Of a stretch of DNA of 64,000 nt, positions 60,044 through 63,722 are shown piece by piece. The translations under genes were made by a program, and so were the position numbers. Below the pieces are notes generated by a model. That model did no database searches and was not told the origin of the DNA. It saw nothing but the letters and a program-made list of their open reading frames with translations. Positions within the stretch are counted from its first letter, which is position 1, and every line of letters begins with the position of its first letter. Source of the stretch: Streptomonospora nanhaiensis (GTDB taxonomy: Bacteria; Actinomycetota; Actinomycetes; Streptosporangiales; Streptosporangiaceae); contig NZ_JACCFO010000001.1 in NCBI RefSeq assembly GCF_013410565.1, positions 1 to 64,000 on the forward strand, read 5' to 3'.

Positions 60044-60874
60044 ATGAACCGGTCACCGGATTGGATGCGCGTGCGGGCCCCCGGCACGCCGCCGCGCGAG
60101 ATCGACTCCAGCGTGGCCCACCCCGCCCGCATCTGGGACTACTGGCTGGGCGGCCAGGACAACTTCGCCGCCGACCGCGAGACCGGCGACCAGATCCTCG
60201 CCGCCTTCCCCGACATGGTGGCCAACGCCCGCGCCGACCGCGCGTTCCTCGGTCGCGCCGTGCGCTACCTCGCCGGCGAGGCCGGGATGCGGCAGTTCCT
60301 CGACATCGGCACCGGGATACCGGCCGCCGGCAACACCCACGAGATCGCCCAGGAGGTCGCCCCCGGATCGCGGGTGGTCTACGTCGACAACGACCCGGTG
60401 GTGCTGGCCCACGCCCGCGCGCTGCTGGTGGGCGACGGCTCGGTCATGACCGACTACGTCGACGCCGACCTGCGCCGGCCCGAAGCGGTCCTGGAGGCGG
60501 CCGCCCGCACGCTCGACTTCGACCGCCCGGTGGCGGTCCTGCTCCTGGGCATCCTGGAGTTCATCCCCGACGACAACCAGGCCCGGACCATCGTCAAGCG
60601 CCTGGTGGACGCCGTGCCCAGCGGCAGCCACCTGGCGATCGCGCACTCCACCACCGAGGTCAACCGCACCGCCATGGAGGAGGCCGCGCGGCTGTGGAAC
60701 GACGGCGGGTCCACGCCCCTGACGCTGCGCGACGCCGCCGGGCTGGAGCGGTTCCTCGCCGGCCTGGACCTGGTGGAGCCGGGTGTGGTGTCGTGCGCGC
60801 TGTGGCGCCCGGACCCCGCCGATGAGGAGGTGCGTCCGGTGGCGCAGTTCTGCGCGGTGGGCCGCAAGCCCTGA
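60044..60874 (+). CDS. SAM-dependent methyltransferase, DUF574 type
   Basis: A 276-residue protein of an actinomycete-specific methyltransferase-like family. HPARIWDYWLGGQDNFAADR is the family signature, QFLDIGTGIPAAGN the SAM-binding motif I, VVYVDNDPVVLAHARALL motif II, and AVLLLGILEFIPDD the post-motif. The substrate is unknown for the family. ATG 60044 has a GCAGGAG site. It is convergent with two micro-ORFs on the other strand. Confidence 0.9.
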   Translation: MNRSPDWMRVRAPGTPPREIDSSVAHPARIWDYWLGGQDNFAADRETGDQILAAFPDMVANARADRAFLGRAVRYLAGEAGMRQFLDIGTGIPAAGNTHEIAQEVAPGSRVVYVDNDPVVLAHARALLVGDGSVMTDYVDADLRRPEAVLEAAARTLDFDRPVAVLLLGILEFIPDDNQARTIVKRLVDAVPSGSHLAIAHSTTEVNRTAMEEAARLWNDGGSTPLTLRDAAGLERFLAGLDLVEPGVVSCALWRPDPADEEVRPVAQFCAVGRKP

Positions 60875-60957
60875 CCGGCCCGGTCGGCGACGCCGCCCGG
60901 CACAAGGGCGACCCCCCGGGGAGTCCCGGAGGGCCGTCGCGGAGCGGGGACGCGGGC

Positions 60958-61056
60958 TCAGCCCTGGTCGCCCTCCAGCAGTTCGAGGCGCCAGCCCTCG
61001 ACGACCATGACCTCGTCGCTCAGCAGGTCGAGGGCAAGGCCGGGAAGCTCACTTAT
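60958..61056 (-). pseudogene. Micro-ORF copy 1 (32 codons, ATA in the start position)
   Basis: Reads (I)SELPGLALDLLSDE, then VMVVEGWRLELLEGDQG and TGA. It is paralogous to the micro-ORF at 61146 (22 of 32 residues identical without gaps) and has the same AAAGG ribosome site at the same distance, but its first codon is ATA. Either the start has been lost or a rare start is used. A hairpin-prone GC stretch (60908-60941) follows. Not a recognised family. Confidence 0.5.
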
Positions 61057-61096
61057 GGATGTCTACCTTTCACGTGCGGATACGGGGTCGTGGGCG

Positions 61097-61124
61097 GGGC
61101 CCTCCCACGGGTCCGGGAGGGCCC
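61097..61124 (-). terminator. Hairpin after micro-ORF copy 2
   Basis: A perfect 10-bp stem (61097-61106 with 61115-61124) with an 8-base loop, 22 bases past the stop of copy 2 and upstream of copy 1. It suggests that each copy is a separate transcription unit or that copy 1 is attenuated. Confidence 0.65.
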
Positions 61125-61145
61125 TCGTGCTCAGGTGGCGAGGGC

Positions 61146-61244
61146 TCAGCCCTGGTCGCCGTCCAGCAGTTCGAGGCGCCAGCCCTCGATCCACATGGAC
61201 TCGTCGCTGAGCACGAGGTCGAGAAGGCCGGGAAGATCGCTCAT
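61146..61244 (-). CDS. Micro-ORF copy 2, 32-residue acidic peptide
   Basis: ATG 61244 with a GAAAGG ribosome site eight bases upstream; reads MSDLPGLLDLVLSDE, then SMWIEGWRLELLDGDQG and TGA. It is highly acidic with a single Arg, two Trp, no Cys and no membrane span. The tandem paralogue at 60958 shares the SxLPGL start, an SDE centre and the EGWRLELL(D/E)GDQG end, which argues that this is a real selected peptide. Downstream of the phosphoribosyltransferase on the same strand but 300 bases away. I do not recognise the family; a RiPP-type precursor or a signalling or leader peptide are possibilities only. Confidence 0.6.
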   Translation of the reverse strand: MSDLPGLLDLVLSDESMWIEGWRLELLDGDQG

Positions 61245-61543
61245 GGGTCACGCCTTTCACTTTGGGTAATCGGACGGACACATGCTGGCACAGTCCCAGG
61301 TGAGTACGCGAGTGGTTGCGGCGGATCCGTGGACAACCGGTTTGCGCCGTCCCGCGCGGGTGCGGCGACCGCCGTGCACCCGCGAACCCGGCCGAACCCC
61401 CTCCGGCCTGCGGCGATACGGCCCGCGACGACGTATGCCCCGACCCCGGCGGGCGTCCCCCGCCCCGGCCTGGAATTCCAGGTCCCGGGCGTGTCGCCCT
61501 CCGGTGCGGCTCCCGCAGCTCCTGCGGCTCCCGCTGCGCCAGG

Positions 61544-62534: not shown

Positions 62535-63722
62535 ATGGCACGGGCACCACAGGGCGGCCCCCCGGCGGCGGAGGCCCCCACCATGGGCGTCGAGGAGGAG
62601 TTCCTGCTCGTCGGCGGCGACGGCCGCCTCGCCCACGAGGGCCAGGAGGTGATCGCCGAGGCCGGCGAGGGCCCGGCCCAGTTGGTCGGCGAGTTCGCCC
62701 GCTGCCAGGTCGAGGCCGCCGGCCCCGTCTGCACCACCGGCGGCGAACTCCTCGCCGAGTTGCGCGCGTCCCGGCGCCGCCTGGGCGCCGCGGCGGCCCG
62801 GCGCGGGCTGCGCCTGCTCGCCGCGGGGGCCCCCGTCCTGGCCGAGCCGCAGGCCCCGCCCCTCAACCCCGCGCCCCGCTACACGCGCATCGCCGAGCAC
62901 TTCGGCGGCCTGGCCCACCTGGCCGCCAGCAGCTGCGGCTGCCATGTCCACGTCGCGGTCCCCGACCCGGAGACCGCCACCCGCGTCATCAACCACCTCC
63001 GCCCCTGGCTGCCGTTCCTGCTCGCCCTCAGCGCCAACTCGCCCTACTGCGAGGGCGCCGACACCGGTTACGCCAGCTGGCGCCACCAGCGCTGGTCCAG
63101 TTGGCCCTCGGCCGGCCCGCCGCCCCACCTGGCCTCGGCCGCCCACTACGACTCCTGCGTCACCGAGCTGCTGCACACCGGCGCCGCCCTGGACCCCGGC
63201 ATGCTCTACTGGGACATCCGCCGCTCGGTCCACCAGCCCACCGTCGAGGTGCGCATCTGCGACATCCCGCAGACGGCCGAGGAGGCCGCGCTCATCGCCG
63301 TGCTGGTGCGCGCCCTGGTGCGCGCCGCCCTCGACGACATCGCCGCCGACCGCCCGCCGCTGCCCCGCGAGCACACCACCCTGCGCGCCGACCTGTGGCA
63401 CGCCGCCCGCGAGGGGTTCGCCGGCCGCTGCGCCGACCCGCTGGCGGGCGGCGCCGCACGCCCCGCCCGCGACGTCGCCGAACGCGCCCTGCGGCGGCTG
63501 CGGCCCTACCTCGCCGACACCGGCGACCTCACGCTGGCCGAGGAGGTGCTGGGCGCCCTGAGCGGCCCCGGCGGGGGCGCCGCCCGCCAGCGCGCCGTCT
63601 ACGCCGCCCACGGCAGGCTCACCGACGTGGTCGACCACCTGGCCGCCGCCACCCTCGACGGCCTGGGGCTCGCGCCCGCCCCCCAGGCGCCTCCGGCGCA
63701 TGCCCGCCCGGCCGGCGGGTAG
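62535..63722 (+). CDS. GCS2-family carboxylate-amine ligase (YbdK-like)
   Basis: A 395-residue ATP-dependent ligase of the glutamate-cysteine ligase type 2 group. MGVEEEFLLV (metal-binding glutamates), HVHVAVPDPETATRVINHL, LALSANSPYCEG and HQPTVEVRICDIPQTAEE are characteristic. It probably makes a gamma-glutamyl amide, but its natural amine is unknown. ATG 62535 is used; family similarity begins at residue 16, so a Met at 17 (62583) is possible. Confidence 0.9.
   Translation: MARAPQGGPPAAEAPTMGVEEEFLLVGGDGRLAHEGQEVIAEAGEGPAQLVGEFARCQVEAAGPVCTTGGELLAELRASRRRLGAAAARRGLRLLAAGAPVLAEPQAPPLNPAPRYTRIAEHFGGLAHLAASSCGCHVHVAVPDPETATRVINHLRPWLPFLLALSANSPYCEGADTGYASWRHQRWSSWPSAGPPPHLASAAHYDSCVTELLHTGAALDPGMLYWDIRRSVHQPTVEVRICDIPQTAEEAALIAVLVRALVRAALDDIAADRPPLPREHTTLRADLWHAAREGFAGRCADPLAGGAARPARDVAERALRRLRPYLADTGDLTLAEEVLGALSGPGGGAARQRAVYAAHGRLTDVVDHLAAATLDGLGLAPAPQAPPAHARPAGG

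Follow-up and report, generated by a model that had tools for sequence, protein, structure and literature searches.

Two micro-ORFs of Streptomonospora nanhaiensis and their family of short peptides linked to a distinct prolyl oligopeptidase: candidate precursors of a minimal ribosomal peptide system

Two tandem micro-open reading frames (micro-ORFs), located on the minus strand of a 64,000-nucleotide stretch of DNA from Streptomonospora nanhaiensis (contig NZ_JACCFO010000001.1, positions 1 to 64,000; hereafter the window), are, as judged by profile searches, members of a sharply bounded and so far unnamed family of peptides of 31-35 residues. Each genome found to carry the family has one peptide gene adjoining the gene of a prolyl oligopeptidase (POP), and the POPs linked in this way form a clade of their own. 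The two micro-ORFs are probably orphan precursor genes of a minimal system for ribosomally synthesized and post-translationally modified peptides (RiPPs), composed of a precursor of 31-35 residues and a single dedicated POP that would cut after Pro5 and at the junction A/S|DE.

The boundaries of the family were established by searches of increasing breadth. A single peptide used as query already retrieved relatives in other genera, and the family searches relied on a profile built from 17 peptides. In 249 genomes of the order the members were matched at E <= 2.6e-13 and the next match stood at 0.005; in 341 genomes of the host's family the profile recovered 23 peptides from 18 genomes (E <= 8.5e-8) and, apart from these, no match at E <= 0.001. 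Among 394 genomes of the class, with scoring limited to at most 20 first-look candidates in each, six had matches at E <= 0.001, all of them from the host's family. Four peptides scanned with Pfam and NCBIfam fell into no family, the only hit being a chance-level Pfam match under the cut-off. The POPs of named Planobispora, Nonomuraea, Microbispora, Actinomadura and Nocardiopsis were placed among those of the host's family in the POP tree presented below, and the family is therefore inferred to be Streptosporangiaceae in the sense of GTDB.

The layout of the pair is as originally described: same strand, same length of 32 codons, and a gap of about 90 bases (89 exactly) at the positions collected in Table 1. 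The two copies, here called U (upstream) and D (downstream), share 22 of 32 residues when aligned by eye and 69% when aligned by MAFFT. The ribosome site GAAAGG lies ahead of both ORFs, with GTGAAAGG before both copies, and a hairpin follows each, as can be read in the sequence. The original prediction had seen in them paralogous coding peptides, and the homologues found outside the locus, 23 peptides in 18 of the 341 family genomes, agree with this. It is hardly credible that they are chance ORFs in a GC-rich repeat: the pair does lie inside a duplicated segment of 147 bases whose copies are 78% identical, which would suit such an origin, but the homologues in 18 genomes refute it, as does the conservation of the ORFs above their spacer. 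In fact, compared with the sister species G003, identity reaches 89.9% and 82.8% for the two ORFs, 63.5% for the spacer and 91.5% for the neighbouring phosphoribosyltransferase (PRTase) gene, a pattern of conservation beyond chance.

The argument by which selection on the peptide had first been proposed, a D/E swap at one position with synonymous differences elsewhere, stands only in its first half. The swap is present, but the codons of the two copies show 10 non-synonymous and 2 synonymous differences (4 and 0 in the 19-codon tail). The argument thus fails for the pair, which alone gives no demonstration of purifying selection because the codon differences are mostly non-synonymous. The suspicion that had fallen on the ATA of copy D was better founded: no in-frame ATG, GTG or TTG is met before codon 17, and the syntenic counterpart in G003 starts with ATG, so that copy D may be weakly translated or decaying.

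All 23 peptides can be divided into a leader of 5 residues, a core of 7-11 residues to which length variation is confined, and a follower of exactly 19 residues. The leader reads M, x, E or D, L or I, P, with I in place of M in one peptide (the ATA copy); the follower reads DE....E.WR.....G.... Pro5 and six residues of the tail (D1, E2, E7, W9, R10 and G16) are the same throughout the set. The core is composed for 88% of A, V, I, L, M, F, W, P or G; its first residue is Gly in 17 of 23 peptides and its last is Ala (15 peptides), Ser (7) or Gly (1), while Pro is the penultimate residue in the cores of L041 and L048. Cys is absent from all 23 peptides. A purine-rich ribosome-site pattern is matched upstream of every one of them, the pattern having been picked after viewing the sequences.

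Codon comparisons between species distinguish the core from the follower. In six species pairs of equal core length, two of which come from the same two species and are thus not fully independent, residue-changing codons amount to 20 of 54 in the core and 11 of 114 in the follower (Fisher p 6.7e-5); the synonymous changes are 9 for the core and 8 for the follower. These counts are a contrast between parts of the peptide, not strong purifying selection by ratio. A seventh pair, set aside for its unequal cores (8 and 10 residues), has 3 of 19 tail codons changed. One feature typical of RiPPs, a precursor with a conserved recognition part and a variable core, is accordingly present in 23 of 23 peptides, with replacements concentrated in the core. 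The most divergent member is L190:8882-8983 (genome G656), whose tail departs at several conserved places and ends with EATSGELN; W, R and the POP neighbour are kept. The predicted structure of a lone peptide is one helix spanning residues 5-29, to which little weight is given (predicted local distance difference test, pLDDT, 80; predicted template-modelling score, pTM, 0.37).

The second element of the system had been overlooked. The gene of about 700 codons that adjoins the peptide gene in relatives encodes a POP, with PF02897 and PF00326 found in the three proteins scanned. One peptide copy adjoins a same-strand POP in 18 of 18 genomes, lying upstream of it in 17 and downstream in one (L048), and in 14 of the 17 upstream cases a DPYRWLE-type motif near the POP N-terminus starts 132-206 bases past the peptide stop. 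When ORFs of at least 80 residues were compared across stretches of 14-20 kb, antisense frames of the POP being set aside, the POP was the sole ORF family common to all 18 linked loci; the next most shared families reach four loci of a single genus. The original prediction had asked whether the neighbouring enzymes are the same in other genomes, and the answer is negative for the methyltransferase beside the pair and positive for the POP. A second RiPP feature, a dedicated enzyme beside the precursor, is thus found in all 18 genomes (one POP being broken), although not at the window's own two copies. Among the POP matches listed from named genomes, all of them distant (at most 45% identical), the best 80 loci have no peptide at E <= 0.07 within the flanks examined, and no named carrier of the system emerged from them.

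Two linked loci depart from the common form. In L048:6631-9921 (genome G191) the POP carries about 400 low-complexity residues between its propeller and hydrolase domains, and the peptide is downstream of it. In L189:7145-9258 (genome G679) the POP is broken into pieces lying in different frames, next to an intact peptide gene. With 6% contamination noted for the assembly, either an error or decay is possible.

Five of the 23 peptides lack a POP at E <= 1e-30 in the 20 kb examined for each; these orphans are the window's pair, a further two from G003 and a single one from G064. Each genome bearing orphans also carries a linked peptide-POP pair; that of the window genome, a third copy on the same contig, is encoded on the minus strand with the peptide at 4,188,441-4,188,545 and the POP at 4,185,916-4,187,997. 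These orphans bear on two readings in which the peptide is not a precursor. It is very unlikely that the short ORF is a leader or attenuator acting in cis on the downstream POP gene. Its position upstream of the POP in 17 of the 18 linked loci and the GC-rich foldable sequence that follows it there (hairpin energies having no shuffled control) are what one would expect of such an element, but 5 of 23 copies, the window's two included, have no POP in the fetched stretch, and the peptide of G191 comes after its POP. A role as dedicated inhibitor or chaperone of the adjoining POP, rather than as its substrate, is unlikely too, if less so; it would explain the pairing in 18 of 18 genomes, the fixed length of the tail and the short size, but not why the middle varies in length and sequence between flanks of fixed length, nor why extra copies, each with its own core, occur away from the POP.

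The linked POPs are, by score, motif and phylogeny, a distinct clade with an intact catalytic triad. Of 200 genomes of the host's family, 189 have some POP at E <= 1e-100. The highest ten scores in this set, 1170-1283 bits, belong to POPs from ten peptide-carrying genomes and the next POP scores 778, a gap that is partly circular as the POP profile was built from nine of these ten POPs; the POPs of G191 and G195, also peptide-linked, lie outside the ten. The tree is independent of the profile. Of its 69 POPs, 17 are linked to the peptide, 20 are further POPs from the host's family and 32 belong to named genomes; a sparse row and the broken POP of L189 were omitted. The 17 linked POPs make up one side of a branch with support of 100; the method was a quick one with midpoint root, and a long-branch warning applies (L101 with the partner clade). 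Among 396 genomes of the phylum, two candidates per genome being scored, no POP outside the host's family exceeds 682 bits.

The nucleophile motif also sets the clade apart. It reads G-x-S-H-S-G in 17 of the 18 linked POPs, the eighteenth being the broken one, with SHAG, whereas 99 of the 100 POPs outside the linked set have G-x-S-N-G-G, the remaining one being unmatched by the pattern; SNGG is usual for S9 prolyl oligopeptidases without strictly defining them. An alignment of 38 POPs shows no variation at Ser551, Asp634, Arg636, His672 and Trp592; Trp592 we take to be the residue of the P1-proline pocket, from the alignment to 2bkl and the porcine numbering. An AlphaFold model of the partner POP has the POP fold (pLDDT 91.3, pTM 0.92), and its best Foldseek match is 2bkl; the chains of PCY1 are aligned with a template-modelling score of about 0.88 and 26% identity. 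In OphP the backbone amide of the residue beside the nucleophile serves the oxyanion hole, according to PMC12235650. One may speculate that the replacement of Asn by His at this place shifts the POP from hydrolysis to joining.

A short head ending with Pro, a variable hydrophobic core, a conserved tail and a specialised POP together give the layout of the cyclic peptides made by POPs in fungi and plants. In the mechanism that we propose, the 19-residue tail would be a docking follower bound by the POP, which would cut after the invariant Pro5 and perform a second cut, or a joining, at A/S|DE. A hydrophobic core of 7-11 residues would be released, which in the window would be GLLDLVLS and, if copy D is translated, GLALDLLS. 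The calculated [M+H]+ values are 811.4924 (cyclic) and 829.5029 (linear) for GLLDLVLS, and 1054.6659 and 1072.6764 for GLLFIGVAVIA, the predicted core of the POP-linked precursor. Processing of the orphan copies would take place in trans; for the window's pair, the POP in question would be the one whose gene lies at 4.19 Mb on their contig. From the arrangement described above we infer the cleavage by the POP at both sites and the processing in trans; whether the core is, perhaps, also cyclised head to tail we hold to be about evenly balanced.

The full proposal, to which we give somewhat less than even confidence, is that of a bacterial two-gene class of ribosomal head-to-tail cyclic hydrophobic 7-11-mers, in which the SHSG POP would remove the leader and cyclise at Ala or Ser, would serve the orphans too, and would have an origin independent of the POP cyclases of fungi and plants. 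Its main competitor, which is plausible but which we rate lower still, has the precursor and the POP in common with the reading preferred here and differs in that the POP would only hydrolyse; what it releases, perhaps a secreted signal, would be either the long C-terminal portion or a hydrophobic peptide in linear form. The invariant Pro5 suits plain POP cleavage, and FlaP and MpcP, the two bacterial RiPP POPs counted as characterised by a 2026 paper, remove leaders (PMC12951456). On the other hand, it is difficult to regard as waste a tail that keeps its length and its W, R and G throughout the family, an unmodified linear 8-mer would presumably be exposed to peptidases, and no transporter or receptor gene is common to the 18 loci.

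Several observations weigh against the precursor reading itself, or against its cyclic form. The residue ahead of the second cut would be Ala, Ser or Gly instead of Pro, and POPs act less well at such residues; 8 of 23 cores contain Pro, a potential cut site for a plain POP, and L041, with PG ahead of DE, has an ambiguous junction. The window's copies have no adjoining POP, and the ATA of copy D is a poor start codon in a gene that is maybe dying. The partner POP is not close in sequence to known macrocyclases and ordinary bacterial POPs score higher: it reaches 170 bits with GmPOPB and up to 355 bits with bacterial POPs. The follower, with its 11 replacements against 8 synonymous changes, gives no sign of strong purifying selection, and two species, at L047:9938-10036 and L185:8661-8759, share the identical core LDVMSILA with tails that differ at two residues, contrary to the general trend of fast-changing cores. 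Finally, an amphipathic follower helix, as described for the followers of MSDIN precursors, was considered and rejected, the hydrophobic moment of the follower at 100 degrees (0.088) being below that of shuffled sequences (0.255).

Among the closest known systems is the MSDIN/POPB system of fungi, the source of cycloamanides and related cyclic peptides. PMC5159998 describes MSDIN precursors of 33-37 residues, with a leader of 10, a follower of 17 and cores of 6-10 residues with a mode of 8, and a POPB that cleaves at the Pro of the leader and makes the joint at a second Pro, alongside the housekeeping POPA. The likeness extends to the short precursor (31-35 residues here), the leader ending with Pro, the conserved follower (19 residues here), the variable core, with a mode of 8 residues in a range of 7-11 here, and the presence of a dedicated POP beside a housekeeping one (PMC5159998). 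There are differences as well: the present system is bacterial; its leader has 5 residues and not 10, although it ends with Pro in 23 of 23 peptides; its core ends with Ala, Ser or Gly, without a second Pro; its follower forms no amphipathic helix; a single precursor lies beside the POP; and the partner POP carries SHSG, is nearer to ordinary bacterial POPs and falls outside the POPB clade by score, not by tree. By analogy, the bacterial system would work like MSDIN/POPB, but it is not a member of that family, as several of the defining features fail.

A likeness to plant peptides lies in the core, as orbitide cores that start with Gly and end with Ala or Pro occur. The plant system of orbitides and PCY1 also resembles the present one in its POP-fold enzyme; dependence on a C-terminal follower, which is only proposed for the bacterial POP, is reported in PMC12235650 for PCY1 and GmPOPB and not for OphP. 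The plant system differs in that PCY1, according to the same text, needs the leader to be removed first by another peptidase (PMC12235650), and in the low identity to the partner POP, only 26% in the structural alignment. Among bacterial POPs acting on RiPPs, only FlaP and MpcP had been characterised, for leader removal, as stated in PMC12951456, which also mentions the POP ProTM32, used with myxarylin as a likely leader peptidase, and POP genes beside some biarylitide-like clusters; FlaP cuts after a leader Pro (PMC10885120). These enzymes, like those described here, are bacterial POPs tied to a ribosomal precursor, but what they trim is the leader of a precursor that other enzymes modify; here no gene besides the POP is common to the loci. 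A class III lanthipeptide, suggested by the context of FlaP, was rejected: Ser/Cys pairs are ruled out by the lack of Cys, and no LanKC gene is shared by the 18 loci, which have only the POP in common. The housekeeping POP 2bkl of Myxococcus shares fold, triad and the Trp of the P1 pocket with the partner POP; the latter differs by SHSG instead of SNGG at the nucleophile, by belonging to a separate clade and by its tie to the peptide.

No description of a bacterial two-gene POP system turned up in searches of the open-licence literature of PMC, which leave subscription papers mostly uncovered and are no proof of absence. Such a system is easily overlooked in annotation because the precursors are 31-35 codons long. 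If confirmed, it would be an arrangement for small ring-shaped peptides similar to those of mushrooms and plants and new for bacteria, and a new kind of RiPP in which the core is flanked on both sides and a POP is the second of only two genes. It could also provide a compact cyclase accepting Ala or Ser at the joining site, and one POP serving orphan precursors elsewhere in the genome would give two or three different rings per strain.

The neighbours of the pair in the window have no comparable standing. The original prediction had given weight to a DUF574 methyltransferase and had placed the ORFs opposite to it; this gene (PF04672) is instead convergent to them and ends at 60874, without overlap, and the tandem was found next to it in no genomes besides G000 and G003, which are sister species. 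In the remaining four of the six genomes of the genus there is no peptide match at E <= 0.001 and, by their PRTase homologues, nothing similar to the tandem at the DNA level. A functional tie of the peptides to the methyltransferase, to the PRTase (PF00156) or to the glutamate-cysteine ligase (PF04107) was rejected, these neighbours not being common to the other loci. The latter gene, of glutamate-cysteine ligase family 2, occupies positions 62535-63722, divergent and upstream of the PRTase gene, with no tie to the peptides seen. The features of the pair itself are given in Table 1.

Table 1. Positions in the window of the two micro-ORFs, their predicted parts and the adjoining sequence elements
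Feature	Position	Strand	Remarks
Copy U, upstream orphan peptide gene	61146..61244	-	32 codons, ATG start, MSDLPGLLDLVLSDESMWIEGWRLELLDGDQG; profile E 7.5e-16; 84% identity to its G003 counterpart
Copy U leader MSDLP	61230..61244	-	last residue is the invariant Pro5 (23/23 peptides)
Copy U variable core GLLDLVLS	61206..61229	-	predicted released product; segment with all the length variation of the family
Copy U 19-residue follower DESMWIEGWRLELLDGDQG	61149..61205	-	19 residues in 23/23 peptides; D, E, E, W, R, G invariant
Copy D, downstream orphan peptide gene	60958..61056	-	32 codons, ATA at the start position, ISELPGLALDLLSDEVMVVEGWRLELLEGDQG; profile E 1.0e-15
Copy D variable core GLALDLLS	61018..61041	-	same segmentation as the other family peptides
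GC-rich hairpin between the copies, after copy U	61097..61124	-	read by eye
GC-rich hairpin after copy D, ahead of the convergent methyltransferase gene	60908..60940	-	likely terminator; read by eye
Conserved region upstream of the pair	61245..61345	-	presumed promoter and ribosome site GAAAGG; 85.1% identity to G003, against 70.6% for 61346-61543
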